From Carya illinoinensis (lineage: Eukaryota; Streptophyta; Magnoliopsida; Fagales; Juglandaceae), in NCBI RefSeq assembly GCF_018687715.1, contig NC_056758.1, positions 29,452,967 to 29,516,966 on the forward strand: DNA of 64,000 nucleotides, read 5' to 3'. Of the stretch, positions 6,001 to 64,000 are shown piece after piece (the stretch's first letter is position 1; each line of letters begins with the position of its first letter). The position numbers and the translations under genes are program-made. Below the pieces are notes generated by a model, which was not told where the DNA came from, searched no databases, and worked only from the letters and a program-made list of their open reading frames with translations.

Positions 6001-9000
6001 TCAGATTGTTTAGTTTTTGTTGACTTTGTGCTATTGTTGGATGTTAACAAAATAAGTTTTGGTTTCAGGTTCTAAACCGAATTGGCTTGGATTGTCCTGA
6101 CCTTGAAACTTTGTTTATTAAAGATCAAGCCCTTACTACTGAAAGTATGTATTCTTTGTCTCAACCTTTGTTTCTTCAATTTATGCGGGGATCTTCACTG
6201 TGATATCATTTTTCCTTTACTTATTCTTATGCTAGGTGTTGAGAAAATAATAGGATGGGCTCTAAGTAACCACTTTATGCATCATACTGAAGCGTCAGTC
6301 AAAGATGCTAAACTTGTGATTTCTGCTGAAAGGTAGTACAATTCTTTTGAGTTGTGGTCATCATTGTTTTGGAAATTCATAATCAAATAGTTAAAAAATG
6401 GTTTACCTCTCTGTTTCCCCATGTTAACATTGCTCATGACTGTTAATTTGCAGCATTAAGTATGGGCTGAACATTCTGCAGAGCATTCAAAATGAAAGCA
6501 AAAACTTGAAGAAATCACTTAAGGTAAAGTTAACATCTACTTATTGGTGGTTCTCACAGATTCAATTGTCACCTCTCCCATTCCTTTCTGGGAATGAAAT
6601 GTACTCCCCCGATTTGTTTGTACTTTATATTCTGTTTAAGCTCAAAATTTTTCAGGATGTGGTTACTGAGAATGAATTTGAGAAGAAACTTCTTGCTGAT
6701 GTTATTCCACCAAGTGACATTGGGGTTACTTTTGATAATATTGGGGCTTTAGAAAATGTAAAGGATACTTTGAAGGAATTGGTGATGCTTCCTCTTCAGA
6801 GGCCTGAATTATTTTGTAGAGGGCAGCTGACTAAGGTGAGAGGATCTATATATGTGTTTTCACTAGTTTCTCCTACCTATATTTGGCTAAGAAACTATGC
6901 TTTATTTTCCCATGTACACCTATTTTGGATCTCTCTTTTGGGGGGTGGGGGACTGTGATTCACCTTCTTAATATAATTACTCATGTGACAGCCATGCAAG
7001 GGAATATTGCTCTTTGGGCCTCCTGGTACTGGGAAAACAATGCTTGCAAAGGCTGTTGCAACTGAGGCCGGAGCAAATTTTATCAATATATCAATGTCGA
7101 GCATTACTTCAAAGGTATTTATGGATATGAAAAGGTTGTCTGCACTCTATTCTGTTGCTTCTTCTGAACTTCTAGTGATGTCTCTCTATTGCTTGCAGTG
7201 GTTTGGTGAAGGGGAGAAGTATGTCAAAGCAGTTTTTTCTTTAGCTAGTAAAATTGCTCCTAGTGTTGTCTTTGTTGATGAGGTAAGTTTAATGCATCGG
7301 TTTTTATTTATTTATTTATTGATAGATCAGTTTGATCCAAACCTTGCCCCACCTTTTTGTTTTTTTTTTTTTTGGGGGGGGGGGGGGGGGTTCACCACAG
7401 CCCTCATATAAGCTTCTCCCTCCTCTCTAACAGAGAAAAAACTGTTCACTTCAATTATTTTTACAGGTCGATAGCATGCTAGGAAGAAGGGAAAATCCAG
7501 GAGAGCATGAGGCTATGCGTAAAATGAAAAATGAGTTTATGGTGAATTGGGATGGTCTGCGAACAAAGGATAAGGAGCGAGTGCTGGTACTTGCTGCTAC
7601 CAATAGGCCTTTTGATCTTGATGAGGCTGTTATTAGGAGGCTTCCCCGGAGGTAAAGTAATCGCTTCATACTTGTCATCACTTCGTTCCATTACTATTTG
7701 GCACAAAACAAGTTTCATATGCTTTCTGCATGCAATTGTTGTGTACAGACTGATGGTCAATCTGCCAGATGCACCAAATAGAGAAAAAATTCTGAGAGTT
7801 ATTTTAGCCAAAGAAGAGTTGTCACCTGATGTTGATTTGGAAGCAATTGCAAATATGACTGATGGATATTCTGGGAGTGACCTAAAGGTTCCCATTACTT
7901 CTTTTTTTTTTTTTAATCTGCTCTCCTTCAGCTAGATAATTTATCTCTTTATTGCATTTTGGGTTCATCTAATTACTTTTTTGGTTGTAGAATCTCTGTG
8001 TGACTGCGGCACATTGTCCGATTAGAGAAATTTTGGAGAAGGAAAAGAAGGTGAGTTTGACGTTTTTAGTTCAAGGATGTGTTTCTTTTTGGTTTGCTAT
8101 CTTGGAATATGAATGAAAATTTGCTTTATCTTTTAATGAGGGCATAATAAGCTTAGCCTGACACACCTGTTTGGTCAAGTTTTATCTATATGTTTGGTGC
8201 TAATTGTATTCTAAGCTTGGCCACATCCTTTGTCAACAATGTGACGAAAAGCATGCTTCCTCCCTCTCTAGATTCTGTTATATATGCTAGGAATAAACAA
8301 TAAGATTGGTGATCCATTGCTTTATATTTTGCTTTTGCATTGATTTGCGCTGCGACCTTTTACTTATTCTTACACGTAATCAAATTACTGCCTCGAAAGT
8401 ACAATATCTTGCAAATATATCTTCTATTTGAAGAAGAGCCTATTTTAAGGTCCCCATTTTAACATATATTATGACTTGGGTCTAGGAGCTTATGAAGATG
8501 GTGTCCCAATTGGGACTGTAGGAATTCCTAGAATTGGCTATACCAACATCATATGACATATCTGTGCTATTGATGGTATGATAATTTAGCTTCCTAACTT
8601 ATTAAGGATATTTGCTAGGATTAGGAATAACTTTTTTGATAAGCGGGATCTTTGAATAGTGATCCTCGATCCTCCTAAAGTCCATGATTTGGATACATGG
8701 CAGGCCTGTTTCATTGCTAGTGGTCTAGATGGAGAAAATAGTGGAAGAGGAGTTGGCAGTAGGGTGTTTAATGGGTACAAAATCAGGCCAACATGAAAAC
8801 TCATTGCTTTGCATTGGAGCTTTGGTCCAAGATGGACAGAAAGATATGATGGGCTGCACAGAAGCTATTCCACTGGAGTCCAAAGGGGTGTCATCGCCAA
8901 CGAAGGAATCTCTGAAAGGAGAAGGCTCTTGAGAGCCTTGTACTAAGGTGGGTCCAGAGTTTTCAGTTTCATTTCTCGATGGTAATAAGGATGCCTTACG

Positions 9001-33052: not shown

Positions 33053-34240
33053 TCAACATACAGCACCACCACCCAATGTAAAAGTATAACCAGTAGTTGA
33101 AAGAGAATCACCTGACAAGGTATTCCAATTGGCATCACTGAAGCCTTCGAGTACAGCAGGATATTTTTTATAAAACAAGCCATAATTTTTTGTATCGGAT
33201 AAATATTTCATTATCCGATCCATTGCAAACCAATTGTCTCTTCCAGGCTTGATAGTAAATCTACTAAGTACTACTATTGCATAAGCAACGTCAGATCTAG
33301 TACAATCAGTTACATAACATAAACTACCAATCATGCTAGCATATTCCTTTTGATTAATCACATCATCATCATTTTCAATAGAAAATAAATGAACACTAGG
33401 ATCAAAAGGATTAACAACATGCTTGCATCCAACATAATTACATTTATTTAATAATTTTTCTATGTAATGCAATTGATCTAGAAAAATACCATCACATATA
33501 TTGGTGATTTTTATTCCCAAAATAAAATTAGCCTCACCAAGATCTTTCATATCAAAATGATTGCTAAGCATGCTTTTTGTTTCATCTATAACATGCAAAT
33601 TAGAGCCAAAAATCAATAAATCATCAACATAAAAGCTAATAATAACATGAAAATTTTTTCAAGATTTATAATAAATACATTTATCACTTTCATTTAACTT
33701 ATAGCCATTCTCAACCATGCAAGAGTCAAATTTCTCATGCCACTGTTTAGGGGCCTGTTTTAAACCATATAGGGATTTTGTCAACTTACACACTTTTCTT
33801 TCATAGCCAGGCCCTACAAAGCTTTCGGGTTGATCCATATAAATTTCTTCACCTAGGTCCCCATTCAAAAATACTGTTTTAACATTCATCTGATGAATTT
33901 TTAAATTATATATTGCTGCAATGGCAATCAATAATCTAATAGATGTTATTCTTGTAACCGGAGAAAAGGTGTCGAAAAAATCAAGGTCAGCTTTTTGTTT
34001 AAAACCTTTTGTGATGAGTCTAGCCTTGAATTTTTCAACGGTTCTATCTGGTCTAAATTTTTTCCTAAGGACCCATTTACTCCCTATGGTTTTGCAACCC
34101 GGTGGTAACTCAACTAATTCTCAAGTTCTATTAGAAATTAGTGAATCCATCTCATCATTTATAGCATCTTTCCAAAACACTGAATCAGGTGATGCTAAAG
34201 CTTCTTGTAGAGTATTTGGATTTTCCTTAATATTATAAAT
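33053..34240 (-). pseudogene. copia reverse transcriptase, broken
   Basis: The - strand has FDTFSPVTRITSIRLL, NVKTVFLNGDLGEEIYMDQP, LTKSLYGLKQAPKQWH, and the catalytic YVDD near 33630. Stops include TGA at 34121-34123 and another just before the YVDD segment (about 33658-33661). Confidence 0.9.
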
Positions 34241-34372
34241 ATAATAGTTGGGACCAAAATCTTTTTCAATTCTAGCTCTCTTACTCCTTCTTAATTCAAA
34301 ATTTTCTTCATATTCTAAAGGAATAGAAGAACTAGTTTCAGAAAAAAAAAAAAAAAAAAAAAGTTTAAATTC

Positions 34373-35461
34373 TTAACCCCCACTATTTTTGGATTTAAAA
34401 AGAAATTTTTCTTTATGGAAAATTGTATTGCCTGAATAAAAAATCACTTTATTCTCAGTATCAAAAAACGTATAGGCTTTGCTATTTTTTGCATAACCAA
34501 GAAAGACACAAGTGGTAGTTCTAACACCTAATTTTTGCCTTTTAGGATCTGTTAGCCTTACAAATGCCAAATAACCCCAAACTTTAAAATATCCCAAACT
34601 TGGCTTATACCCTCTCCATAATTCAAAAGGAGTAGTTTTTGAATTTTTATAAGGCACCTTATTTAAAACATGACAAATAGTCAAAATTGCTTCACCTCAA
34701 AAACTTGATGGAGCACCTGAATAAATCAGCATGGCATTTGTCAATTCAATTAACGTTTTATTTTTTCTTTCAGTCACATCATTAGAAGCAGGTGAGTATG
34801 GTGTGGTAGTTTCATGGATAGTTCCCAATGACTGAATAAAATAATTAAACTCATTTGAATCATACTCTCAGCCTCTATCACTTCTAAATCTTTTAATCTT
34901 TCTACCAAATTGATTTTCAACTTCATGGAGGAATTCTTTGAATTTTTTAAAAGCATCACTTTTATTTTTTAATAAATAAACATATGTATATTTTGAAAAA
35001 TCATCTATAAAAGAGATAAAATATCTATTTTCTCCATGAGTTAAAATTCCTTCAAATTCACAAAGATCACTGTGAATTAAATCTAACAATTTGGTGTTTT
35101 TCTCAACATTTTTACGGGGCCTTTTTGTAATTTTTGCTTGACTACAAATTTCACATTTTTGAAAATCATTTTTCAATTTGGGAATTAATCCTAAACTACT
35201 CATGATTCCAACATATCTACTATTAATACGACATAAACGTGCATGCCAAAAATTTAAAGAAGAAAGCATATAAACAGAAACATCCAATGCTTTATTATCA
35301 ACGTTCAATTTAAACATTCCATCACAAACATAGCCCTTGCCCACAAAAACTCCATTTTTAGTAATAACATATTGATCAGATTCCATAGTTTGCTTGAAGC
35401 CAGCTTTGTTCAGAAGAAAACTTGACATCAAATTCTTCCTCATTGAGGGTGTATAGCACAT
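34373..35461 (-). pseudogene. copia integrase, broken by TGA codons
   Basis: Reading down the - strand: the GAG-pre-integrase stretch with LNFWHARL, the zinc-binding end CEICSQAKITKRP, and the catalytic-core pieces LIHSDLCEF and FIDDFSKYTY. The frame is cut by TGA at 34868-34870 and 34697-34699. The C-terminal part follows (LWRGYKPSLGYFKVWG). Confidence 0.88.
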
Positions 35462-35494
35462 CTTTAAGCGTCAATATACGTCCAAATGTGAATT

Positions 35495-38455: not shown

Positions 38456-38557
38456 ATATGTTATAATTTGGACGTAAGAGTCCTTTTTGTAGAAACAAAA
38501 AAAAAATATGGACATTGAATCTGACTGTCGAAGTCGTGATCATACGTTTTTAATATA

Positions 38558-38795
38558 GAGAAAAGCTCAAGGTCGGATGGGTGGTTTTTACATTTTTACA
38601 CCCACCAATGACCATAAACCACGTTGGAGTTGTAGCTTGTGAAATTCTACATCTGCATGCATGATAAAAATGTGAATAATCCCTCCGTTGCACAGCAATC
38701 TTTCCTCTTTTCCCTCCCTTGTGAAATTTTTTTTCACATCAACTGAACACTTTCCCTCCCTCGCATAGCGATTTTCTCTCCCCACGATAGAATGG
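38558..38795 (+). repeat. Left terminal inverted repeat of the Mutator-like element
   Basis: About 238 bp, starting GAGAAAAGCTCAAGGTCGGA. It diverges from the right TIR by scattered substitutions and small indels. Confidence 0.92.
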
Positions 38796-39536
38796 TTTGA
38801 TTTAATGTGTTTTACAGTTCATTATTATAGAAAATCAATGATAGAGTAGTTGGTTTAATGTGTTTTCCTTTTTTCTTTTTCTTTTTTTAGGGATATGGTT
38901 GATTTGGAAGTTTGTATCGGACTGTCACTAACAACAGTTTTACATACAAACTTTCCAAGGAACACTACGGCAACCAACCCACAATTTAGGAAGTAAAGAA
39001 ACAAATCCACAATCACAAGTACGAACCGATGGTATTTATTGGATAAAAAAAAAAATTTTGATTCCAACACCAACCTTAAAACTTAAAAATGCAAAGGAAA
39101 ATTAAGGTTGCAGAGAGAAAAAGAAATAGAGAGCATATGGTTCCTATAGCTTGGTATTGTCGTCTATTTCAAACTTCTTCTGGCACCCAGTGATTGGGTT
39201 TGCAGTGTTGAAATTCATTCCCTATGGACTCGCCGCTATGGCCGCTGATGCGAAAAAATGCCGCCACTTGCTCTTCCTCCACCGGGGGGCTCCTGTTGGC
39301 TCTTTAGATTTTTGGGTGTGGAGAAGAGACTTATATATTTGCACGTGTTTTTCAGTTAGTTGTGTTGTTTTTGCATTGGGTTGCGTTTTCTTTTTGAGAA
39401 AATCTATTCTAAGGCCAGTCCACGCGCATACACCCCACACTGTGACATGGCGAACCCGGTCTGACCGCCATGTCACGATTTCCATTTACACGGTTTGCAG
39501 TTTGGGTCTGAAGGCCATCTCTCCCATCTCTCCTTC

Positions 39537-39564
39537 CCCCCCCCCCCCCCCCCCAAAAAAAAAA
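39537..39564. repeat. Poly(C)-poly(A) junction
   Basis: A run of about 18 C and then 10 A inside the presumed leader region of the GRF gene. The mirror form of the T/G junction at 7358. Confidence 0.9.
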
Positions 39565-40309
39565 CGAGAAGTGCTATCTGCTGATTCCCCTAACTTCGAT
39601 TGATCTCCCTCAAGCACGATCTGCTCCTCTGAAAATTCAGAGGTCTGCAGCACCCCTTCCCCCCCTTCCTCGAAACCAAGCAACACAATTCCCCCAATCG
39701 AAGTTGCGTTTCCCTCAAACCCACAGAAAACCCTAGAAATTTAAAATCACAGAAAACCTAGATCTTACAAACCCTTCCTCCACTCACGTCTGAATCGCCC
39801 GGTCTCTTCATCTCCTTCGTAAGCCTCAAATATCTTCCACTCCACGACAGTAAGGTAATCTCTTTTTTCACTTTGGTTGGTTTTTTTTGTTTTAATTTTT
39901 TTTTAGTTTATTAATGCTTGGAGATATGGTTTCTAAGGTTGTGATTTTACTCTTGAAAGTTGGATTTTACTCCCTCATTTTGTATTTGTTGTGGGAAAAA
40001 TCTTGATGGAGTTTTGATATTAAATAAAACGTATATGTTGATGGGTTTTTTGTGTTGTGGTTTCGGAGGTTGTGTTTTTGCTCTTGAAGTTGGGTCCAAG
40101 GATGGTTGGGGTGGTCTATATTCCACTGGGAACTTAGAAGAGCTTGAGGTTTTGTTTGCTAACTTTTTCACTTTTTGTTGCTTTCAAGGATGTGTCTATT
40201 GTGTTCTCCTTGTAGATCCTTATTTCTATTTTGTCCACACGTGCTATTTGTCGATATTGGAAATGGGTGAAACATGCTCATTGAATGCTTGACCTCCAGG
40301 GTAGTACGT

Positions 40310-40639
40310 ACATACATACATGTGTGTGTATATATATATTTATTTATGTAGCACACGCACACATTTTAAGTACCTGGAAAAAGTAGAATTTTATAATTGG
40401 GCTTATGGTAACTTGGATGAAAATGATTTGCTTGTCTATGTAGTGTTTGAAAGGCTTAAGTTCTCCATAATATCCAAATTCATTACCATTTGCCCAAATA
40501 TTGTTTATAGAAAAGAGCAGATTTCTTATGCTTTGAAAGAATGATAAGTGAAATGATAAGTAAGGGCTTGGCTTGACCCTATGTTCTTCAACTTCTAGGC
40601 AGATCATCCTGGTTTTCTCATACGCTGTGTATACATACA

Positions 40640-40672
<33 letters not shown>

Positions 40673-40962
40673 GTATTTATTTATGTAGCACACGCACACA
40701 TTTTAAGTACCTGGAAAAAGTAGAACTTTATAATTGGGCTTATGGTAACTTGGATGAAAATGATTTGCTTGTCTATGTAGTGTTTGAAAGGCTTAAGTTC
40801 TCCATAATATCTAAATTCATTACCATTTGCCCAAATATTTTTTATAGAAAAGAACAGATTTCTTATGCTCTGAAAGAATGATAAGTGAAATGATAAATAA
40901 GGGCTTGGCTTGACCCTTGTTCTTCAACTTCTGGGCAGATCATCCTGGTTTTCTCATACGTT
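40310..40962. repeat. Two-copy tandem duplication (period 337 bp)
   Basis: GCACACGCACACATTTTAAG occurs at 40351 and 40688, and the 300-odd bases around it are repeated almost exactly, including the (TG)n(TA)n stretch before and gatcatcctggttttctcatacg at the end of each copy. A second (AT)n run sits at 41048-41072. Open frames of about 75-100 codons here are low-complexity by-products. Confidence 0.9.
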
Positions 40963-41737
40963 GTTTTATTGTCTCTTCTCCTGGTTTACACTGTAGTACT
41001 GTCCATATTATGATTATTACATCACTTTCTTTTTCCTTGGGAAGGAATATATATATATATATATATATATAGGATATTGCCTTAAAGGTTGATGTTCTCT
41101 GTAATGCATTCCCTTTTCATGATCTGCAGGTGTTTATGAGAAAGGATATAATCTCATCACTTCTCATAAGTAAAAAGATAATAATAATAATTTTATAACT
41201 CTTCAATTATTTTAAGACTAGTCTATTCAACCTGATATGGAGGAGGGGAGTTAATTAGAATTGAAGTTATGTTAAGAATTTATTTGAAATTATAAGCTAG
41301 CCATAACGTACGATGGAACGGGAATGTTGTACCCTTCTAAATGTGGTAAGTAGTTAATTAAGTTAATTAAGGTGAGTAAATAAAGAAATCAATTCAGTAT
41401 TATTCACATTCTATAACCAAAAATGGCCACATTTGGATTGTGGAGATCATTAGTGATTAAATTTCAGTTATGACTGTGTACTTCTTGGGAAAGAAATTCT
41501 ACTTGCTCTAGAGTTCATTGGCTGCAATTGCCTGTCAAATTGCTTATCTTGTTGTGGTGTTAAGAATTCCTCAATAAATTTTAACATTACTTATAAATTT
41601 AGCAGTTACTAATTTGTTTAGTTGGAGTTCCATTTAACGTCATATTTTAACAACTTCTTGAACATCACAAATGGTCATTCTACTTACTTTCCTAAAATGG
41701 TTTAAAATTTTTCTTCACTGTTTGAGATAGATAACCT

Positions 41738-42254
41738 ATGGCATTGAGCGCATCATCATGTGTGGTTGATGATTTTTTCGAATCACCAACCTGTTGGTAT
41801 GGCTTGAAAGCCCCATTAACGACCTCCAAAACTAACAAAAATCCTGGAAGAAAGTTTTACACATGCCCAAAGTACAACACGGTAAAACATAGTTTTTTGG
41901 TCATATTTTGTATTACTTTTTAACATGTCATATTCATACTTAGTTCAAATATACCTTTTGCACTGCAGGAAGAAACAAAGTGCCAATTCTTCTTATGGGC
42001 AAATATATTTCAATTGGTAGATGAAAAAATTCGCACAAGAGAGAATGCAGTTTGAAAAAGGGAGGACGATGTATTGCTCCGTGAGTATAAAGTTCAGGAA
42101 AAAAAAAGATAAACTACTTGAAAGAGAGGATGTTCTTTACAATCAAGATGAGCAAATTGTGAAGCAGGTCGTACAAAATAGATGTATTTGCATCTCTTTG
42201 TGTATGTATTGGGTGGTATCAATTGTAATAATTTTTGGTTGGCTTGGACCATAA
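41738..42254 (+). CDS. GRF-type zinc-finger protein, two or three parts, frame-disrupted cargo gene
   Basis: Exon 1 (41738-41881) gives 48 residues with a GRF-type motif: SPTCWYGLKAPL and then GRKFYTCPKYN, followed after a GT-AG intron (acceptor at 41968) by EETKCQFFLWAN. The family normally has CxCG at the first site; here the second Cys is Tyr (CWYG), so a zinc ligand is missing. Read straight on, the frame stops at 42055 (77 residues). A different frame from 42021 continues as a charged coiled coil and a hydrophobic C-terminal segment (CMYWVVSIVIIFGWL), the expected tail of plant GRF proteins, so a frameshift near 42020 is likely. GRF zinc fingers bind nucleic acid in other proteins. Its position inside the Mutator-like TIRs suggests cargo or accessory status. 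Confidence 0.75.
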
Positions 42255-42522
42255 ATGTATTTTGGTCGAAGTTAGACGGAAATGGATAGTTCGGATTAAA
42301 ATATTTAAGCGTATTTTTCTTTTTATTGTGAAGGGAGATATCAAGTGTTAGTAGTTTGTAAACTTTTGGTATGTAAAATGGATGGGTTGCTAGATGTTTA
42401 ACATGGCCCGATTGTAATTTGAAGAACCGGTTGTAAACTTTTGATATGTAAAATAGATGGTTCCTGAATGTTGAACATGTCGTAGATATTCACCTAATTT
42501 GTTGAATATGGCGTAGATATTC

Positions 42523-43985
42523 ACCTTAGTATAATTCACCTGATATTATACCAAATAACCAAATAAATCACAACCTGCCAAATAACCAAATAATATCCCA
42601 ACCTGATATTACAAATTGCTTAATCTCTTATGAATCTTATTACACCCATAAATATGCCAATATACATCACGATATGGCAAACCTTAGTATAATTCACTTG
42701 ATAGATATTACACCAATTAAATCACAACCTGCCAAATAATCAAATAATATCCCAATCTGATATTACAAATTGTTTAATCTCTTATGAATCTTATTACACC
42801 CGTAAATATGCCAAAATACATCACGATATGGCAAACCTTAGTATAATTCTCCTGATAGATATTACACCAATAGGGGTGTAAGAAAAAACCGGCAAACCGG
42901 AAAACCGGCCCGGACCAAACCGGACCGGACCGGTTGTGCCGATTTTGGAACGGTTCGGTCCGGAACCGGTTTTCATAAATGAAAAACCGGCCGGAACCGG
43001 TCCGGTTTCGGTTTCGCTTAGTTTTGGACCGGACCGGACCGGTACTATTTATATATTAATATTATATATAATATATTTTATATTATATATAATTTTTAAT
43101 CACATAAAAAATAATCACATATATACTAATACTAATATTCTAATATAGATTATAGTTATACTCGTACTAATATAGTTATACTAAATCATCAAAACTAACA
43201 CTAACATATAGTTATACTAATAGTCTAGTATTAATACTATTATATTGTCTAATATATTATATAGTTATAACTAATACTAATATATATATACTAATACTAA
43301 TCGTCTAATATAGGATTATAGCAGACTTTTTTTTACACTAGATTTCTTATTTTAGTTTTTGTTTTATAACAGTTTTTTATATAGTGAATTTTGTTTATAT
43401 AACAGATTTTTTTTATAAAGCAGATGTTTTATATCAGAATTTTTTACATAGCAGATTTATTTTTTTATAAACCAGATTTTTGATAGCAGAATTTTTTTAC
43501 ATAGCAGATTTTTTTTTACAAAGCAGATTTTTGTAAATGGTAAACAGAATTTTTTAAATCAGTTTTTTCTTTTAAACAGAATTTTTATAAAAAATTTGTA
43601 TTTTATTAAAACCGGACCAAACCGGACCGGAAACCGGTAAAACCGGAATACCGGTTTAGGAGGAAAATCGGTGCGTAATTGATTTTGAAAAATGTAAAAC
43701 CGGTGCCTACCGGTTCGGTCCTAGATTTTGTACAAAACCAGACCGAACCGGACCGGTTACACCCCTATACACCAATTAAATCACAACCTGCCAAATAACC
43801 AAATAATATCCCAACCTGATATTACAAATTGCTTAATCTCTTATGAATCTTATTACGCCAATAAATATGCCAAAATACATCACGATATGGCAAACCTTAG
43901 TATAATTCATTTGATAGATATTACACCAATTAAATCATAACCTGCCAAATAACCAAATAATATCCCAACCTGATATTACAAATAA
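42523..43985. repeat. Tandem repeat, about 156-bp unit, 3.5 copies, split by a hAT element
   Basis: ACCTTAGTATAATTCA starts copies near 42523, 42681, 42835 and 43894. Each unit contains aacctgccaaataac, cctgatattacaaatt and catcacgatatggcaaa. Ignoring the hAT insert, spacing stays at 154-158 bp. Units are 90-odd percent alike by eye. They are non-coding and lie between the GRF gene and the transposase gene. Confidence 0.92.
42871..43767. mobile_element. hAT-type non-autonomous element rich in CCGG words (897 bp)
   Basis: Perfect 11-bp terminal inverted repeats TAGGGGTGTAA / TTACACCCCTA and an 8-bp duplication TACACCAA at 42863-42870 and 43768-43775. Both features are diagnostic of hAT elements. 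Sub-terminal regions are packed with accggaccgg words, in inverted orientation at the two ends. The middle (43325-43590) is a degenerate iteration of cagattttttta. No transposase is encoded. Confidence 0.95.
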
Positions 43986-46936
43986 GGTGTAGAATAAATT
44001 GAGTAAATACCCATAAATAAGGACACATATTTCTTTGAAAAAAAAAATGCAAAAACCTATCACAAGCATCTAAAAACTTCAATTACATCACAACAACCAT
44101 TAACGCATCAAAATCTAACCTCGCTTTGACCAAAATACATCAAAATACACCACAACCATCTAATTATTCTCAATTACATCACAACGACCAAAATATTTCA
44201 AAATACATCAGAACCATAACATCACGAAACCCTTCCTCTCATCAAATACTAATTTGCAACCATAACGTCATTTCTCCTCATTAACTGATGGCGGTGGCTG
44301 TGTGACAGTATTTTATTGTGTTAAAACAACAAAATCATCCTGGCAACCATTGAGTACCTAAAAATTTGAAAAAAGCACATATACAACCCAATTACTAAAA
44401 AATTCTGAATTCTGACTCAAGCAAAATGGAACTAATGCACGTAAGGGAAACCTATTACCTTATCAGTTTCTGGAGCTTCCGATACCTCACCATCCTGTGA
44501 TGCATCATCAAATATTTTCCTACAAATCTAAATGAATTGAAAGATAAAAAAAAATACACATCTATTAGAAACAATTATAGAGTGCATTCTTAAGCAATCA
44601 ATAATTAACACTATAATATTTGATGTTTTACCGGTTTCTTCTTTTCCTTTGTTGCAGCTTTCTCCACAGGCAGAACATTCCTTTTCGTTGGTGGCCTTCC
44701 TTTCCCTCGAACAATGTGGGAGCTTAAGATTTTCTTACCCTTTTCTGTGACCATAGTTTCTTTTACCTTGCTTGAACCAGACTCAAGTGTTAATCCTTTA
44801 AATTTATTCTCAAATTCATCCAAGTGGGAAATGAATGCAGAAACATGGTCATCACTTGGACAAACACGAGTTGCCCAAGTGAGGCACCGTTTAACCACGA
44901 ACTCATACCTTCCTGAGTCCGCACTCTGTCGCAAGTCATCATAGCTACTTTTTACCACCGTATATCTCCTCTTTAAATCCTTCCTCCATCGATCCAAGAT
45001 ATACTTATCTGGCAATGCATGAATCTTATTCATATGGCAAACGTTCAATGCATGCCTATAGAGAATTCCCCTAATCTCAAATAAAGCACGTGTGCATTTA
45101 ACATCAACTTCCTCCTGGTTAAAGTAAACTGTGTACTTCACACTCTTGACATGGTCACCATTAGTGGTAATTTCATCCAAAACATCATAGGTTGAAATGC
45201 AACCATCCTTGCTGATAAATATGCAATTATATAAAATCATTCCCCACACCTCTCTTTGGACCTCTTTAAATTTTACACTCGTATACACCGATTGAAATTG
45301 CTTCTCAATGCGGAATGCCAATGAATATGGGATGGTTTGGTTGGAGGAATTGAAATCAGCTGTCGTCTTAAGCTGCACCTTTTTCCTGAGCGCATTGTCA
45401 AATTGATTGACAAAATCTTTTAACGTGGTACCAGAATGCACAAACCCATCAAAAAAAGCATTCATACTTTCAGATCTCTGAATTGTGCTCATGCCAGCCC
45501 AAAATACTCCCTTAAGGTACACCGGGACCCAGAACAACCTCTCATTGTACAACCTTTGCAACCATACATTATCACCGAGTCCATACTTTTGAATAAGTTG
45601 CCCCCACTTCATCTCAAATTCTGCACATGTCTGTTAATCATATAGGGCACTTTGGATGGAAGTCTTCAACTCTGTATTGTACATTGTGTGAGATCCCAAT
45701 TTTTCTGACAATTTTCACATTATATGCCATAGACAATATTTATGATGTGTGTCTGGGAATATTAGAGCAATAACACTCTTCATTGCTCAATCTTGGTCAG
45801 TAATGATCGCTTTTGGAACACTAACATTCATGCATTCTAACCATGCTCGAAACAACCACACGAAAGTACTTGTGTCCTAGCTTGAAAGCAATCCAGCCCC
45901 TAACAGTATAAACTGCCCATGGTGATTTATCCCAACAAATGGAGCAAATAGCATACTGTATCTATTGGTTAGGCATGTCGTATCGGATGTGATCACATTT
46001 CCAAAATACTCATATGCTGCTCGACTACGTGCATCAGCTCAAAACACATTCCTCAATCTCAACTCCTTATCCACAACAATCATATATGTAAAACCATCAT
46101 TCTGCAACCTCATATTCTTGAAGTACTCAGTAAGTGCTTCTCCACCCCCTTTACCCAACCTTAATTTCCTGGTTTTGTCAATAAAATTTCGACAGTCTTT
46201 TTCTTGAAAATCAAGATTCTCAAACCCCCTGCATCAACAACAAGTGCATTAAAATTCTTGTTCATTCTAATACCTGCTCTGTCGTTCAAATCAAGCATCC
46301 TCTAACTGTATTCGTCTAAATACTTGTGCGATCTAAAGAATATAGATTTTTGGGGGCTGACAGTGCTATAATTATGAGCATTCTCAACAGTGGTCACCTC
46401 CCAAGTACCATTCACTAAGTGAGCATTTATCCTTGCCTTATAATCCGTTTTAATAGTTGGTCGTGGCCTTGAGATATTACTATGGCTAGGTTGGTACTTG
46501 CCACCTCGAGCACACCCAATCGTCAAATACCTCACCCTCCCATCTACCTCTCTCTTCGTCCGTTGTGTTATAACATCAAAACCTTTTTGCTTGGCATATC
46601 GCTTATAATTTGCCATAAGCTCATGTTTAGTGGCAAACTCCATACCAGGTTTGGGATTCTCCTCAACTTGGTCATTATCAGAATATTCTTCATTTATTTC
46701 ATCGGCTTCTTCATTCTATTCATTTAAAAGAGATGTATCTCTAACATCTGTTTCACTTTCAGATATAAATGTCGCAGTAGTCGATGGATTTGTTGTAGAA
46801 TTTTCTAAGCTTCTCAACTCCTCTCTGACACTCGATGGAGGGCGTGGCGGTGGGGGCTGTAATCAGGTAGATGAACTAATACATTACGAGTAACAATCCA
46901 CTAAATCACAAAAATACAAAGTCAAAATGTAGTTAC

Positions 46937-49442
46937 CTGGTTCATTTGTTGAACATGACTGGACTCCTCCGTATTAGTTGATGGAGGGTAGATGAAGGTT
47001 GTTAGAAAGGGTGGCATTGGAGGGGGCTGTAATCAAGCACGATATTAGAATGCGTAACAACATAAGGGAAAAAAATTATACGCAAAATTAAGAACTTGGT
47101 TCGTTTGTTGAACATGGACCGACTCCTTTGCATTAGTCAAGGAAGGGTAGATGAACATTGTCGGAAAATGTGGCATTGGAGGGGGCTGATGGCAAGCATG
47201 ATATTAGAACGGGTAACAAAATTTGTAAAAAAAGATGCGCAAAAATTCTAACCTAGTTAGGTTGCTAAACATGGCCCGACTCCTCTACATTAGTCGAGGG
47301 AGGGTAGATGAACTGACTGTTGGAAGAGGTGGCCTTGGTGGGGGCTGTAGTAAATAAGATATTAGAATGCGTAACAACGTGAGGGAAAAAATAATTATAC
47401 GCAAAAATTATAACCTGGTTAGCTTGTTCAACATGGCCCAACTCTTTCTCATTAGTCGAGGGAGGGTAGATGAACGTTGTTGGATGAGATATTTCTCTTT
47501 TGAGAATCGATGGGATATTTCTCGCTTGACTAGTTTAGTGGGCCATCAGAAAGCTTTTGAGTTCTATGATTTTTTGGCCAGACGTAAGGAGGCTCAAGAT
47601 GTGCTTGTTTGGTTGAAGGATAAGGATGGTCACTTTACTACTAAGAGTGCCTGGGATTGTATTAGGATTAGGGCGCCTCTTTTACCTTGGGCTTAGTGGA
47701 TCTGGCACCTTAATCTTCCTAAGAATATTTCCATTATGATGTGGAAGGCGATTAATAATTGTTTAAATGTTGATGATAAGATTCAGATAGTGGGTATTCC
47801 GATAGTTTCCAAATGTAATTGCTGCCAAGAGGGTCATACTGAGGACTTGAATCATGTTCTTTGCACGAGGGAGTTCGCTAGACACGTTTGGCATTTAGCG
47901 GCTAGTCATTTAGGGGTTCATATGGCTTCTTTTTACACTTGGACAGAACAAATAAATTTTTGGTTTCGTCGTGCGAGTAATTCCTCTTAGGTGCGTATTA
48001 TCTTTGGTATTCTTCCTTCTATTATATCCTGGAAACTTTGGGAGAGGCGTTGTAAAGCCCGATATGAAGATAAGGCCAATACGGTTGAGTCAGTTTGGCA
48101 CGCTATTAAATTATGGCTCCGTCGTGTTGTGGATCAGGTTATGAAAGTCTCTTCTGTTTCTACTCAGGATATTGATATTTTGAATAGATTGGATATCCCG
48201 GTTTTGAATCCTAAACCTAAGAGAGTTCGTGTGGTTAGATGGACTCGACCTCGCCAAGGCTGGGTTAAACTTAACATTGATGGCAGTAGTCTAAAAATCC
48301 TGGCCATTCTGGTGCAGGGGGTGTAATTAGGAATGATACTGGCAGACTGATAGTGGCTTACTCTGTCTCCCTGGGTCATGGTACTAATAATTTTGCTGAA
48401 TTTCAAAGTTTATTAGAAGGAGTTAGCAGGTGTCATACTCTTGGTTTTTCTCGTGTTCAAATTGAGACTGACTCTCAACTTTTGGTTAATTGGATCACCA
48501 AGGATGCTTGCCCCAACTGGTATCTAGAAGAATTTTGGGAAGAACTACATGCTTTTCTTACTTGTATGGATTATACTGTGACTCATATTTTTCGTGAAGG
48601 TAATGCAGTTTCTGATTTTTTAGCAAAGAGTGGTGCTGAGGGTTTGAACTCTGATTGGTCTGGTGATCAGACGTTGCCCAGTCTTTTAAGAGGTCTTATT
48701 CGCATGGATAAATTGGGCCTTCCTTACTTAAGGGTTTCGTAAGGTTTGTGATTGGTCAGTTTTTTCTATTTGTTTTGTTTATATGCTCCATTTTTGTTTG
48801 CTTGTTTTTTTTTTTTGCAGGTTGTCTTATCCTCGGTTGGTTTTGAGTTAGGTTCATGTTTTTTCTATTGACATTGTATTTGAATGTTTTGGTTATTAAG
48901 GTTTTTTTACGCATGGGTTTTGGCTTTTTGTATCCCCCATGTACCAATTTGTAACCACGATTTTCCTCCGCCACAAGTGAGGGTTTTTTAATAAAATTGG
49001 GGTACCGTCCTCTTTTTTAAAAAAATAAAAAATAAAAAATAAAAATAAGAAGAAGAAGAAGAAGAAAGATGAACGTTGTTGGAAGATGTGGTATTGGTGG
49101 GGGCTATAATCAAGCAGGGCGTTAGAACGGGTAATAAATAAACAATTTAAGCCAAAAAATTGAAAGGTAAGGCATATAATTCACCTGGGTCGTTTGTTGA
49201 AGACAACCCAAACCCTCTACATTAGTCGACGGATGGTAGATTAACGTTGTCAAAAAAGGTGGCATTGGTGGGAGTTGTAATCAGACACGATGTTATAACA
49301 GGAAATAAACAACTCGTATCAAAAAACTAAAAGGTTAGAAAGCTATGTACCTGGATCGTTTGTTGAAGACGGCTTGATTCCTCTACATTAGTCAATGGAG
49401 GGTATATGAACGTTGTTGAAAAATGTGACATTGGTGGGGCCT
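46937..49442 (-). repeat. Tandem array of a duplicated 30-codon exon plus its intron (about 160-bp unit)
   Basis: On the - strand each unit has an acceptor, an exon starting PPPMP, and a donor. Exon 47026-46937 is exactly 90 nt (PPPMPPFLTTFIYPP, ending HVQQMNQ). Exon 47185-47096 is again 90 nt. The unit at 47344-47253 has a 2-nt insertion. The next is split by the LINE (49103-49067 plus 47484-47413). Two further units lie near 49184-49275 and 49350-49442. Period is 159-167 bp once the LINE is removed. One unit has lost its acceptor AG (about 49273). Confidence 0.85.
47485..49066 (+). mobile_element. 5'-truncated LINE with C-terminal RNase H, 17-bp target duplication
   Basis: The target duplication agatgaacgttgttgga is exact at 47468-47484 and 49067-49083. 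The + strand encodes a zinc-binding module (CNCCQEGHTEDLNHVLCTREFARHVW) split by single stops (47696, 47988), then an RNase H domain: LNIDGSS, NNFAEFQSLLEG, IETDSQLLVNWI, HIFREGNAVSDFLAKSG. A 3' UTR ends in an A-rich tail (about 49016-49066, with gaa iterations). This is a different LINE group from the L1-type copies elsewhere in the window, which lack RNase H. Confidence 0.94.
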
Positions 49443-49876
49443 GTAATCAGGCACGGTGTTAGAATGGGTAAGAATGAACTCAAGGAAGATAAAATTTGAA
49501 AGTTTAGAAAGATATGTACCTGGCTACCCCATGCATATGTATATGAATTCAGATACGTATTTGGATGCATCATAAATGGCAGGTAGTAGGCATTTCCTGA
49601 ACCATAATATTCCTACAATACACAAATAAAAATACATTAACTAATTGAAATCGAACCCAGACACATTCCTTTTATGAAAGACATTAATGTATCATATCTG
49701 AGTCGGTGGAATTGGTGTAGAAGGTTTGGGTGACTTTTTATCTTCTTCTTTGTCTATCATGCTATTTCTATTGAATTTATAGAATGCAGTAACAAGAAAT
49801 AAATTATGTTAATTCAAATTTCTTCAAACTAACTACAATTACATTTGACACTCAAAGTTTAACAAGTTTAAAGAGA

Positions 49877-50284
49877 TGATCACCATAAAGTTGATATTTA
49901 TTATTTTTAAATTATGTAACAAGAGTACTTCATTATTCAAAAGTATAAAATAAAATTATTATAACACATGTTTAAAACTCTTCTCTTATTTATAAAATAT
50001 ATTCGTTTATCATAAGAGAAGATTATCAATAAAATTAAGGTTACCGCCTCTCATTTTACAAAAAATTACAAATCTTGACATGATCACCATAAAGTTCTTA
50101 TTTATTATTTTTAAATTTTGTAACAAGAGTATTTCATTATTCAAAAGTATAAAATAAAATTATTATAACACTTGTTTAACACTCTTCTCTTATTTATAAA
50201 ATGTATTCCTTTATCCTAAGAGAAGATTATCAATAAAATTAAGGATGTCGCCTCTAATTTTACAAAAAATTATAGATCTTGAAC
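49877..50284. repeat. Two-copy tandem duplication (period 204 bp)
   Basis: TGATCACCATAAAGTT starts copies at 49877 and 50081; both end with acaaaaaattayaratcttga. AT-rich, non-coding, upstream of the transposase gene. The remaining 50285-51082 is AT-rich leader or promoter-like DNA apart from the GC-rich patch at 50677. Confidence 0.9.
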
Positions 50285-50676
50285 GCCAAAATTATTTTGT
50301 GAAATACACTACTTAAACCCCTTAATGCCTTACCCTAACTAGATTTAAAATTAAGAAATAATCTTTACAATTTTTACCAATTCAATCGCATATTCTTTTT
50401 TACAAAATAAATAAATTTGGTGCATCAAAAGTTCTCAAAAACATTCTCAAACCCAGGACTCGCAAAATGCTCAAACCCATTCTGCTCGGGACATGTAAAA
50501 TAAATAACAAAATGTTTTTCTTTAAATAAAAAAATAATTCTATAGCATATATCAAGAAGAAGCAGTGAGTGTATAGTTTCTCTGGGACTTCTTCCGACAG
50601 ACCTCACTTAGGCCAAAATTTCATATCTAAATAGAATGAGACTGTACTATATCTCGTATTTCAACTGTGTCCTTGA

Positions 50677-50841
50677 ATGGAGACGCCGGTGGACAAGACG
50701 ATAGGTGGTGGCTGGACGGGAAGGGTAGCGGCAGCCGAGGAAAGGAAACCGAGTGGGAGCTCCGGCAAAGCTGGAGGGAGAAACGGGACTTCAAATTCGA
50801 AGATCAAATTTGGGGGAAATAAAATCAGGACTAAAGTTTGA
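50677..50841 (+). other. GC-rich patch with a 54-codon open frame, unknown
   Basis: An island of higher GC in the AT-rich right part of the Mutator-like element. The + strand frame METPVDKTIGGGWTG... runs 54 codons, rich in Gly, Lys and Ser. No family was recognised. It could be part of the transposase gene leader (antisense) or a captured host fragment. Confidence 0.35.
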
Positions 50842-51082
50842 GTAAAATGCTGCGTTTACTGTAGCAATTTTAAAAAAAAAAAATTCTAGATCAGCGGTGT
50901 GTGGTGTATGCCACTGTAGCGGCTTAAGTATAGCACTTCTCTTTGTTTTTTCTTGCTGGGTTGTTTATTTTGCATCCATCCCCTGCGTATCAATATACCC
51001 ATTTCATCCATCCCCGCATACCAATTTCAATATGCTAAGTCTTTTTCATTACCAATATCATATGTGAAATGCATATCTTCAT

Positions 51083-51348
51083 CCATTTTTGTCATTGGGG
51101 ACAGGAAATTGATTATGGGAGAGGAAGGAGGAAAATGTGTTTAGCTGTTATGAAAAAAATTTTCACGAGGGAGAGGGGAAGAGGAAATATTGCTGTCCGA
51201 GGGAGAGATTTTTGCTAGTGATATTTCTGGTCACATTTTTATCATACATAAGGATGTAGAATGTTACAAGCTGTAACTCAAATGTGGCTTATTGTCATTA
51301 GTGGGTGTAAAAATGTGATAACCACCCGTTCGGCCTGTAACTTCACTC
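51083..51348 (-). repeat. Right terminal inverted repeat of the Mutator-like element
   Basis: About 266 bp. Read inward on the - strand it starts GAGTGAAGTTACAGGCCGAA, the counterpart of the left end. It probably contains promoter sequence for the - strand transposase gene, as in other Mutator elements (inference). Confidence 0.92.
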
Positions 51349-51415
51349 TTTAATATATTGTCGTAAAATTATAAGTACTATTTGACAAATAAAAAAAATT
51401 ATAAGAAAATAAGCT

Positions 51416-59251: not shown

Positions 59252-62200
59252 CTAGGTAGGCACATTAGAGACAAGAAAATCATGAAAAACCATGCCATTA
59301 AAATCCACAGCTATAGCCCAACTACAAAGAGTTCTGAAAAATAAAACTTTTAGTTCCTCTAAGGATCTTTCTCGGTCTTCAAAAGTCCTCTCATTGCGCT
59401 CCTGCCATAAGCACCACATAATGCATAGAGGAATCATCTTCCACATTGCTTTGATTGGTTGCCTTCCTCTTAAATTTGGCCAACTCGCCAAAGCTGTCTT
59501 CACCGTCTTCGGCATAACCCATGCCAGGTCTAGTCGAGTAAATACCTCATTCCATAGTATTCCGGCTGTATCACAATGCAGGAGAAGGTGATCTACCGAC
59601 TCTCCCCCTCCTTTACACATACAACACCACTCTGTAATGATAATCTTCCTTTTCCTCAAGTTATCAATTGTGAGAATCTTTCCCCGAGAAGCTGTCCAGA
59701 CAAAGAAGGAGACTTTGGGTGGTGCTTTGTGTCTCCAAATCTTTTTCCAAGGAAACTGAGCATTTGGCTCCATAGTAAGAGCCTTATAGAATGAGCGAAC
59801 AGTGAAAGAGCCTTTAGCTGTCGGCTTCCACCACATAACATCTTCAAGCTGCCTGTTTGGTCTGATGGCATATAATAGGCTATAGAAATCAGCAAAGCAA
59901 CTTATTTCCCAATCTTGGGCCGCCCTACTAAAGGTAACGTTCCAGTGAATGTGTCCCCCCGATGTCTCCACAACATTTGCCACTGAAACGTCCTTTGCGC
60001 TTGCTATCTGGAAGAGAGAGGGAAATAGATCTTGCAATGCCCTATTATCACACCAAACATCACTCCAAAATTTTATCCTTAAGCCCACACCCAGCTGTAA
60101 CTTAACAAAGCAATTAAACACCCCCCATCCCTTTCTTATGTTTTTCCACAACCCAACACCATAGGCCCCCCTTACTTCTCTAGAGCACCAATCCCCCCAT
60201 AGAGCACCATATTTCTTTTCAATCACCATTTTCCATAAGGATTCTGGTTCTGTCGCATATCTCCATAGCCATTTTCCTAGTAAAGCTCGATTGAACACCC
60301 TTAGGTTTCTAATCCCCAACCCTCCACCCGAGATAGGACGACAAACCTCTGCCCACTTAACCAGATGAAACTTAAACTCCTCCCTCATCCCCCCCCCCCA
60401 CAGGAAGTCACGTTGGAGTTTCTCAATACGGGCTGCTACACTCGCTGGTATTGGGAAAAGAGATAAAAAGTAAGTTGGTAGGTTAGAGAGTGTACTCTTT
60501 ATTAGAGTAATCCTACCACCTTTAGACAAATACATTCTCTTCCATCCCGCCAATCTTCTCTCAACTTTCTCAATCACAGTATTCCAAACCGATAACGCCC
60601 TTGAGGCGCTTCCCAGAGGAAGTCCCAAATAAGTCATGGGTAATGACGTTAACTTGCACCCCAACAATCTAGCTAGCTGGCGCTTGTTAGGCACTACCCC
60701 GATTGGCACCAATTCTGACTTCTCAAGATTCACCTTCAACCCGGACACTGCCTCGAAACAAAGGAATAAAGCCTTCAGTGCTTGCATCTGGTTCTGTTCC
60801 GCTCCACACATGATAAGTGTATCATCTGCAAACAATAGGTGAGAAATATTAATAATGCCCATCTCCGGAGTTCCAATCTTAAAGCCCTCAATGAAGCCAT
60901 TCGTAACCAAGGCCGTGATCATCCTGCTTAAAGCTTCCATGACTATAACAAACAACAAAGGTGACAACGGATCCCCTTGTCTCAACCCACGTGAACTATT
61001 AAAAAAGCCCACTGCTCCGCCATTTACCAACGCTGAAAACTTCGCCGTCGATATGCACCAATGGATCCATTTCCCCCATCTCTCCCCAAAACCGCATCTC
61101 CTTAGCAAATTGAGAAGAAATTCCCAATTGACATGATCATATGCCTTTTCCATGTCTAATTTACACAAGAACCCAGAATTTTCAGTCTTCAATCTACTAT
61201 CAAGGCATTCATTTGCAATAAGCGCAGCATCTAGAATCTGTCTTCCTTTTACAAAAGCATTCTGCGGATTTGAAACAATCTTCCCCACCACCTCACTCAG
61301 TCTGTTCGCAAGAACTTTTGAGATTATCTTATATACCCCATTCACTAGACTAATAGGTCGATATTCCATGATTTCCAAAGCCCCTACCTTCTTCGGTATC
61401 AGTGCAAGGAAAGTAGTGTTTAGACTTTTTTCAAATTTTCCAACCATATAAAACTCTTGGAACACCTTCATCAGGTCCTCCTTTATTACTTCCCAACAAT
61501 CCTGAAAGAATCCCATTGAGAACCCATCCGGTCCTGGAGCTTTGTCCCTATTCATTTTCTTCACTACCTCAAGAACCTCTAACTCCTGGAACTCCCTCTC
61601 CAATCTCAACACATCACTTTGCTCAAGAGTATCAAAAACCATCCCATTCAAAGGAGGCCGCCATCCCGCTTGCTCTGTAAGTAAGTTCTCATAAAAGTCA
61701 ACTATATGATTGTGAATCGTCTGTTCATCTCTACACTCCACCCCTTCAATTTTCAACATCTCAATATTATTGTTTCTTCTATGTGAGTTTGCAATCCTGT
61801 GGAAAAACCTTGTGCTTCTATCTCCTTCCCGCAACCATAATGCCCTAGACTTTTGACGCCATGACACTTCTTCTAGAAGTATCAACCTCTCAACATCTGC
61901 AATCAGCTCAGCCTTCCGACCTAATTCTTCCTGTGAAAGTGGATGCATCCCTTGAAGCCTCTCGATCTCTTGAATTTCCAGCAACTTTATTTTTCTGTTT
62001 TCTCCTACATTTCCGAAAGACTCCGTGTTCCATACTCTTAAATCTCTTTTGAGTGCTTTCAACTTGCCAGCAAAAATGAAACTGGGCGTACCTTGGAACT
62101 GGTAGGAAGACCAACACTGTTTAACCCTCTCCACAAAACCTTCAGATTTAAGCCACATATTTTCGAATTTGAAAGGCCGCTGGCCACTACTTAACCCTCC

Positions 62201-62893
62201 GCAATCCAACAAAACGGGCCAATGGTCTGAACCTATCCGGGGCAGTCGCTTTTGCCATACATCCGAAAAATGGCTTTCCCATTCTGGGGAGATTAGGAAA
62301 CGATCCAGTCGAGACCATGACTGATTGTTAGACCAAGTTGCGGTACCTCCGGCTAGTGGCAAATCTACCAAATTCAGATCAGAAATACATTCCGAGAACT
62401 CCTCCATGGCTGGCCTCATTCTTCTACTTCCATCCACTTCACTACAGAATCTTGCAACGTTAAAATCTCCTCCAATGCACCATGGAATATCCCACCAAGT
62501 ATACACCCCGGCTAATTCTTCCCACAGTAACCTTCTATCCATGTCTACATTGGGGCCATAAACACCCGCAAAAGCCCATAAAAAGTCATCGGACACACCC
62601 TTAAACGAACAAGCTATCATGTATTGTCCAATAAACTCATCTATCTTTTCCACCACCCTCCTATCCCACAACACCAACACCCCACCCGACGCCCCGTTAG
62701 ATGCCAAGTATGCCCAATCCACATGTACTCCACTCCATAAACTCCTCACAATCCTCCTATCGATCGTCTTCAATTTTGTCTCTTGCAAACATACTATATC
62801 CACTTTCCACTCCCGAAGCATATTCCTAATCCGTAGGCGCTTATTAATCTCATTAAACCCACGGACATTCCAAGAAACAATTTTAGGCTTCAT
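59252..62893 (-). CDS. LINE ORF2: endonuclease-reverse transcriptase, intact 1213 residues
   Basis: One uninterrupted frame. Residues 1-230 form an APE-type endonuclease (SWNVRGFN at 7, QETK at 37-40, GGDFN near 141, GSDHWP at 221). The RT covers roughly 455-770 (KAPGPDGFS at 451, ALIPKK near 497, YRPISL at 511, RGLRQGDPLSP at 635, catalytic FADD at 688). A C-terminal zinc-binding domain ([19 protein letters not shown]) follows. No RNase H domain. It nicks target DNA and copies its own RNA there. Start ATG 62893 lies inside the ORF1 stop region (ATGA). Key residues are present, so the enzyme could be active. Confidence 0.95.
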   Translation of the reverse strand: MKPKIVSWNVRGFNEINKRLRIRNMLREWKVDIVCLQETKLKTIDRRIVRSLWSGVHVDWAYLASNGASGGVLVLWDRRVVEKIDEFIGQYMIACSFKGVSDDFLWAFAGVYGPNVDMDRRLLWEELAGVYTWWDIPWCIGGDFNVARFCSEVDGSRRMRPAMEEFSECISDLNLVDLPLAGGTATWSNNQSWSRLDRFLISPEWESHFSDVWQKRLPRIGSDHWPVLLDCGGLSSGQRPFKFENMWLKSEGFVERVKQCWSSYQFQGTPSFIFAGKLKALKRDLRVWNTESFGNVGENRKIKLLEIQEIERLQGMHPLSQEELGRKAELIADVERLILLEEVSWRQKSRALWLREGDRSTRFFHRIANSHRRNNNIEMLKIEGVECRDEQTIHNHIVDFYENLLTEQAGWRPPLNGMVFDTLEQSDVLRLEREFQELEVLEVVKKMNRDKAPGPDGFSMGFFQDCWEVIKEDLMKVFQEFYMVGKFEKSLNTTFLALIPKKVGALEIMEYRPISLVNGVYKIISKVLANRLSEVVGKIVSNPQNAFVKGRQILDAALIANECLDSRLKTENSGFLCKLDMEKAYDHVNWEFLLNLLRRCGFGERWGKWIHWCISTAKFSALVNGGAVGFFNSSRGLRQGDPLSPLLFVIVMEALSRMITALVTNGFIEGFKIGTPEMGIINISHLLFADDTLIMCGAEQNQMQALKALFLCFEAVSGLKVNLEKSELVPIGVVPNKRQLARLLGCKLTSLPMTYLGLPLGSASRALSVWNTVIEKVERRLAGWKRMYLSKGGRITLIKSTLSNLPTYFLSLFPIPASVAARIEKLQRDFLWGGGMREEFKFHLVKWAEVCRPISGGGLGIRNLRVFNRALLGKWLWRYATEPESLWKMVIEKKYGALWGDWCSREVRGAYGVGLWKNIRKGWGVFNCFVKLQLGVGLRIKFWSDVWCDNRALQDLFPSLFQIASAKDVSVANVVETSGGHIHWNVTFSRAAQDWEISCFADFYSLLYAIRPNRQLEDVMWWKPTAKGSFTVRSFYKALTMEPNAQFPWKKIWRHKAPPKVSFFVWTASRGKILTIDNLRKRKIIITEWCCMCKGGGESVDHLLLHCDTAGILWNEVFTRLDLAWVMPKTVKTALASWPNLRGRQPIKAMWKMIPLCIMWCLWQERNERTFEDRERSLEELKVLFFRTLCSWAIAVDFNGMVFHDFLVSNVPT

Positions 62894-64000
62894 TGGGGAC
62901 CAGCCAGCCCCTTACCTTTCACTCTACCCCTTCTAGAGCTGCCTTCCATATTCATAGACCATGTCAATCTTCTCAGTTCCCGCTGTTTCTTCGATTGGCC
63001 TTTGTTTTTTTGATTATGCCCCTCCTCGATCGCTGTGAGCAATGCCATAAATTGCTCCTCGTATCCATCACATTCTATCCCCACAAATTTTTGGATCTCT
63101 TTCACCTTATGAAAGACCCATTCAGACACTTTCGATTGATCTGAAAAATAAAAATTCAAAGGAACAGGATCCTCCCTCCTACAGTTCTGGAAACCGTGTA
63201 TATCATCTTCAAAAGAGATATTTTCCAACCCCAACTGACCACTGACATCAGGAAACAACAAATCCCCATCCACCGACAGCCTCAAATCCTCAGATCCATC
63301 TCCCTCTTCCTCGCCTGAATCCGATTCCCTCACGACTCTACCCTGATCTTCCATCAACACTAAACCCATCTCTTTCATGCATACCGTCGGGACCCCATCA
63401 GAATGCTCCATCGCCGTCATCGGCGTCATCTGTGAGCTCGCCTCCCTTCTCTCCACCGTCGGCGAGCTTTGCGGCATCATCTCTATTACACTCAGCCTCG
63501 GAGCTGCCGGAATCTCGTCGACGGTCTCCAGTACCACTGTCGGCGAGTTCTGTGGTGTCTCAACCTCTTTAGAGGATACGCCTATAACTGGGTCTTCCGA
63601 ATTGGACCTGGGCTGAGGAGGCCCAGGCCCGACACGAGGCCCTCCACTCGTGGAAGCCTTAGTCCCGTACACAATAAGAGGGGGACTTACCATGGTATTT
63701 GGGCTACAGGCCCCCAGCTCCAGGCCCACCGTTCCAGACCTCCCCTTTTCATCCTCCATTTTCCTTCCTGTTTCCTGAATCAGCCCGACACATTTTCTGA
63801 CTTCTTCCATGTCCTTCTGCAACTTCCTCAACTGGCCCTGTAGCTCCAACAGACGTTTGCTGGATACCCACATCTCCTATCCAACTACCCTGCCCGACTC
63901 TGCATTTTGAAGATGGCGTGGGGCTCGATCCCCCCCAGCTACATGGCTTGCACCTCCGGCCTGCACGTACACCGATCCCGACGTGAGGACCTCCTTAAAG
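62890..64000 (-). CDS. LINE ORF1 (partial), in-frame TAG near the window edge
   Basis: The frame from ATG 63873 to TGA 62890 gives 327 residues: a short coiled-coil-like start (LLELQGQLRKLQKDMEEV), a Pro/Ser/Thr/Glu-rich middle, and a basic tail (SKKQRELRRL, RRGRVKGKG). The same frame is open upstream of the ATG to the edge (KEVLTSGSVYVQAGG) except for a TAG at 63877-63879, so ORF1 is probably longer and interrupted. ORF1 proteins normally bind the LINE RNA; the usual DUF4283 and CCHC parts would lie outside the window. Confidence 0.8.

Follow-up and report, generated by a model that had tools for sequence, protein, structure and literature searches.

A decayed Mutator-like element (MULE) in the pecan genome (Carya illinoinensis) encloses, between its terminal inverted repeats (TIRs), both a FAR1-type transposase gene and a gene for a protein with a GRF zinc ribbon. 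The preferred reading, to which we give a probability of roughly 0.55, is that the GRF gene belongs, as a resident second gene, to a Juglandaceae lineage of FAR1-type MULEs and is not a fresh capture; a lineage-specific accessory gene is favoured over chance capture, and we infer that other copies carry the same pair. If this is true, transposons would have a helper of a new kind in the resident GRF gene, with its zinc ribbon and membrane-like tail, and a class of zinc-finger genes annotated in plants would have to be reassigned to mobile elements. A wider reading is tentative: that the GRF product, with its coiled coil and hydrophobic tail, is a true accessory protein of a FAR1-type MULE lineage and has stayed with the transposase since before the split of Carya and Juglans, about 60 million years ago (PMC6027890), and that many of the GRF genes now called uncharacterized or "At4g04775-like" in the walnut family, and perhaps in other eudicots, belong to elements and not to the host.

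Boundaries and anatomy of the element

The window, the whole stretch of 64,000 nucleotides that was analysed (contig NC_056758.1, positions 29,452,967 to 29,516,966), contains the element at 38558-51348, a total of 12,791 bp. Alignment of its two ends to each other defines a left TIR (38558..38784, +) and a right TIR (51096..51348, -), which match at 73.4% over 241 columns (E 9e-38), and both are directly flanked by an exact 9-bp target site duplication (TSD), TTTAATATA, at 38549..38557 on the left and 51349..51357 on the right. Chance TIRs are ruled out by a control in which 300 pairs of 350-bp stretches were drawn at random with the real spacing: the real pair scored 79, the best pair not overlapping the real ends 18.5, and three random pairs that did overlap them 60.5, 56, and 18. 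Identical 9-mer pairs at the TSD spacing occur at 8 of 51,191 positions, a count that includes the real one. Because of the 9-bp TSD, the outer unit is a single insertion that entered once, in one piece. The long TIRs and exact duplication claimed in the initial annotation are thus borne out, as are its two convergent genes: Pfam domains and strands confirm a FAR1-like transposase (-) and a GRF gene (+) inside the TIRs, with their 3' ends facing each other. A search of the window with seven proteins and the two TIRs found neither the TIRs nor the GRF gene nor the transposase a second time. Plant light-signalling factors derive from FAR1-type MULE transposases. A domesticated host gene of the FAR1 type was considered here as well; it is ruled out by the TIRs, the TSD, and the stops in both genes.

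The same annotation called the 12.8 kb element complete, which holds for its ends and not for its contents, since both genes are broken and two nested insertions lie inside. That these two insertions came later into the Mutator-like element is certain. The first, of 897 bp (42871..43767), has the exact 8-bp TSD TACACCAA on both sides and the ends TAGGGGTGTAA, and is presumably hAT-like, a label that we take from the 8-bp TSD and the end motif. The second is a 5'-truncated LINE of 1582 bp with an RNase H domain (47485..49066, +) and a 17-bp TSD. Together they add about 2.5 kb, and subtracting both insertions and one copy of each TSD from 12,791 bp leaves 10,287 bp, a figure from arithmetic and not from reconstruction; the original unit was about 10.3 kb.

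Other mobile sequences and a probable host gene part are found elsewhere in the window. An uninterrupted 1219-aa frame at 59252-62911 (-) has endonuclease, reverse transcriptase, and zf-RVT domains and is a seemingly whole LINE ORF2; its start is overlapped by a 328-aa frame (62890-63876) with no Pfam match. Pieces of a Copia-type pol (RVT_2, gag_pre-integrs, and rve) lie in separate frames at 33053-35470 (-). An AAA ATPase domain (PF00004) in a 140-aa frame at 6989-7411 (+) is probably part of a host gene.

The GRF gene and its relatives

The GRF gene has two coding exons separated by an 87-bp intron. Exon 1 (41738..41881, +), identified by tblastn, Pfam, and alignment, contains the start codon and the GRF zinc ribbon, in which the second zinc cysteine has become tyrosine, while exon 2 (41969..42254, +), identified by tblastn, contains the remainder of the zinc ribbon, the coiled coil, and the hydrophobic tail. 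The tblastn queries were P0001-P0004, and the exon edges and stop were read by eye with the homologues as a guide. The zinc ribbon (PF06839) is recognized by Pfam at E 9.8e-11, with 42 bits against a cut-off of 25.9, and three of the four zinc cysteines are kept. In exon 2 the reading frame is interrupted by a TGA at 42053 and shifts near 42100, bringing the damage to one stop, one frameshift, and one lost zinc ligand. The start codon is about 3 kb from the left TIR. Upstream of it, a stretch of about 300-350 bp, read by eye, is present twice in tandem (40290-40940).

All seven matches in a single-sequence search with the GRF protein are from pecan or walnut and are 62-72% identical. In the profile search, 30 of 40 matches are Juglandaceae by name, including the profile's own four rows and P0151 (23% of the query covered); there are also four matches without a name (best 1.1e-17) and six others (best 2.5e-5, a bacterial MAG record). 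The best named plant match outside Juglandaceae in this search is from Cuscuta (8.5e-5), and GRF proteins from Populus, Rhododendron, and Anisodus are also among its rows. The alignment comprises 17 of the 30 Juglandaceae sequences, picked for length, the 13 omitted being mostly shorter or odd gene models; P0006 is in a different frame over 28 residues. The four zinc cysteines are invariant in all 17 aligned homologues, and a hydrophobic 19-mer ends at most two residues from the C-terminus in every one of them and at most four in the window copy. In the AlphaFold model of P0001, residues 60-142 form one helix with high confidence, and the zinc part is not confident (pTM 0.34). The pecan gene model P0007 reads past exon 1, and 41 codons of its continuation, across the intron and exon 2, agree with the window at 83% in another frame; therefore the intron DNA is also common to both.

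The transposase gene

Homologues and Pfam matches place the transposase gene, with several exons and with FAR1 and MULE domains, at 44271..49760 (-); the start (about 49760) was set by eye from likeness to walnut P0010. A FAR1 domain (PF03101, E 2.2e-11) is found at the N-terminus and a MULE domain (PF10551, E 4.7e-28) on the read-through of the gene. The best homologue among the matches listed is P0008 from pecan (89%), relative to which the window copy has eight in-frame stops and one frameshift. The Asp, Asp, and Glu of WADARSR, ITD, and SESMN, which we take to be the catalytic three, are invariant in 13 homologues and kept in the window frames. A SWIM zinc finger (PF04434), a domain that FAR1/Jittery-type transposases have towards the C-terminus, is present in P0008; the window copy has no Pfam match to it and two cysteines changed relative to P0008. 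In the N-terminal part of the gene (46935..47484, -), a unit of about 159 bp that contains a short proline-rich exon is repeated in tandem, and walnut P0009 has repeated peptides like those of these exon units. More broadly, the N-terminal part at 46934-49446 (-) is a tandem array of exon plus intron, with the nested LINE inside one unit. A 204-bp unit is also tandemly duplicated at 49876-50282, in the interval from the transposase start to the right TIR. Viral contigs scanned with the pecan transposase, a 13-row alignment of transposases, and the GRF alignment yielded no relative.

Decay of both genes

The window copy is decayed, with both genes broken, and as a dead copy it therefore says nothing about present function. 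Codons for Gln, Trp, and Arg can become stops by C-to-T or G-to-A change, and five of the eight transposase stops, as well as the one GRF stop, are at positions where the family has one of these residues. Stops at such positions fit the decay of a silenced, methylated element, as judged from family residues and not from family codons. The annotations of pecan and walnut contain longer relatives of both genes that lack these breaks.

Origin of the GRF gene

The initial annotation proposed that the GRF protein is an accessory of this lineage and not a chance capture, and this part of it stands with qualification. In favour of residence, the TIRs and TSD enclose both genes, the convergent layout is as in MuDR, the zinc cysteines and the tail are conserved in homologues, the genera and trees of the two genes agree, the intron DNA is shared with P0007, and a mobile FAR1 repeat of similar size is known from Juglans (PMC6027890); against it, a single element with both genes was seen, that element is dead, and the predicted structure shows no confident zinc ribbon.

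Among the matches listed, the closest transposases are from Carya and Juglans, two genera in which relatives of the GRF protein also occur. In the GRF tree (18 rows), the window copy groups with P0001 and P0003 from Carya (83/84), with walnut P0002 beside them (93/92), so that support beside the window copy is moderate and not strong; two further groups are well supported and each contains both genera. Genus labels do not cluster clearly over this tree, 97 of 500 shuffles being as good. The transposase tree has 41 rows, namely 38 Juglandaceae (from the 120 listed of 914 matches), Shorea, Corylus, and the window copy, which pairs with pecan P0008 (100/100); both are in a Carya group (94/91), next to which stand walnut P0012 and P0025. 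In these trees, both genes show the same genus-level history, Carya and then Juglans. Such agreement is predicted by joint residence, but it would also arise from two unlinked families inherited in parallel.

Shared pecan chromosomes were also considered as a proxy for linkage. The Carya-group transposases, among the 120 of 914 matches listed, are on chromosomes 4, 5, 7, 13, and 14, and the seven GRF genes most like that of the window are on chromosomes 3, 5, 7, 11, 13, and 14, with P0005, P0006, P0007, P0131, and P0138 placed by eye, outside the tree. Four of the five are shared, a weak overlap judged post hoc (hypergeometric, about 0.04) that is not counted as evidence; on chromosome 14, the transposase and GRF tags from one assembly are far apart.

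The way the gene sits in the element bears on whether it was simply picked up from the host. It is whole, with its intron, its own start, and the full C-terminal tail, and it faces the transposase, whereas captured gene pieces are often fragments. If it had been picked up, the GRF genes would be a multicopy host family of Juglandaceae, caught by one or a few elements and without a role in transposition, which we consider rather unlikely. Uptake of host gene pieces by MULEs is known (PMC6446971), RefSeq annotates some GRF genes of Juglandaceae as ordinary genes, and the presence of GRF proteins in other plants makes a host origin likely at some point, but the close GRF clade is found only in the same two genera as the close transposase clade, among the matches listed. 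It is very improbable that the gene arrived after the element had formed, as an insertion of its own or as part of one, which would make the pairing an accident of nesting. The hAT-like and LINE insertions certainly entered the element in this manner, and clear ends would be missing if the carrier were a Helitron or had eroded. Apart from AT-rich matches, no further pair of long inverted repeats was found to flank the GRF gene, which speaks against a later arrival only weakly, because that search (at least 25 bp) also missed the short ends of the hAT-like element.

If the GRF gene is resident, a division of labour between the two products can be sketched by analogy. The transposase gene would be read from the right side, and its product, to judge from its family, would cut the long inverted ends and join them. 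The GRF gene would be read from the left side, towards the transposase; its product combines the zinc ribbon with an extended helical segment and a hydrophobic tail at the C-terminus, and it is most likely a helper. The zinc ribbon would bind nucleic acid and the coiled coil would assemble the protein, while the tail, a candidate membrane segment, would anchor the protein in a membrane such as the nuclear envelope. The helper would then aid integration or expression of the element, as is thought for MURB and VANC. Each of these functional steps is conjectural, and the detailed mechanism is unlikely to be right as a whole.

Comparison with known systems

The long TIRs, the 9-bp TSD, and a MULE transposase domain with DDE residues identify the element as a MULE, a group with TSDs of 8-11 bp, mostly 9. 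It is not a Pack-MULE, since it has its own, broken, transposase gene; it differs from the single-ORF form of FAR1/Jittery-type elements in having a second gene inside the TIRs, and it has the MuDR-like layout of two convergent genes, one from each TIR side. Maize MuDR, with mudrA and mudrB, similarly has long TIRs, a 9-bp TSD, and two facing genes. A GRF zinc finger is not known from VANDAL elements or from MURB; a GRF zinc ribbon is the only Pfam domain in the window GRF query. In the portion of PMC3276141 considered, mudrB is reported only in Zea.

The catalogued elements most similar in type are those of the dicot and monocot sub-group of the Jittery clade (group 36, PMC6446971), which share the N-terminal FAR1 domain and have listed TIRs of 39-292 bp, a range that includes those of the window element. 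Unlike it, they are listed with one ORF and no GRF gene, and their TSD is listed as 8 bp or not indicated, as opposed to 9 bp here. None of the plant FAR1/Jittery elements in the catalogue portion of that paper has a second ORF, and the term "GRF" is absent from its main text; groups on the MuDR side often have a plant mobile domain in antisense (PMC6446971). Abermu of barley and its relatives is likewise a large MULE with a second, unrelated ORF of unknown role on the reverse strand, but its transposases are in the MuDR-side clade, with Jittery elsewhere, and in the sections of PMC9168764 covered ORFR is not reported as GRF. According to its authors, the reverse-strand ORF of Abermu may be unimportant for transposition (PMC9168764), which, like the lack of a second ORF in the catalogued FAR1/Jittery elements, counts against residence of the GRF gene. 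Arabidopsis VANDAL elements are also MULEs with accessory proteins, including VANC with anti-silencing activity (PMC10398659).

No description of a FAR1 transposase paired with a GRF gene was found in the literature searched, most subscription papers and RepBase being beyond its scope, in agreement with the initial annotation, which knew of none. A term search of PMC8599713 gave no occurrence of GRF, and in the parts of the other papers covered, GRF-type domains are mentioned solely in a list of expanded zinc fingers (PMC10359422) and GRF solely for methylated peanut genes (PMC6293580). A mobile FAR1 repeat of about 10 kb has been reported from walnuts: its lineage-specific insertions occupy three loci in Juglans regia, where one lies between PPO1 and PPO2, and a single locus in J. 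sigillata (PMC6027890). The paper names no TIRs and its text does not contain GRF, and the repeat is compared here by description; like the window element, it is from Juglandaceae, bears FAR1, is mobile, and has a size near 10,287 bp (PMC6027890).
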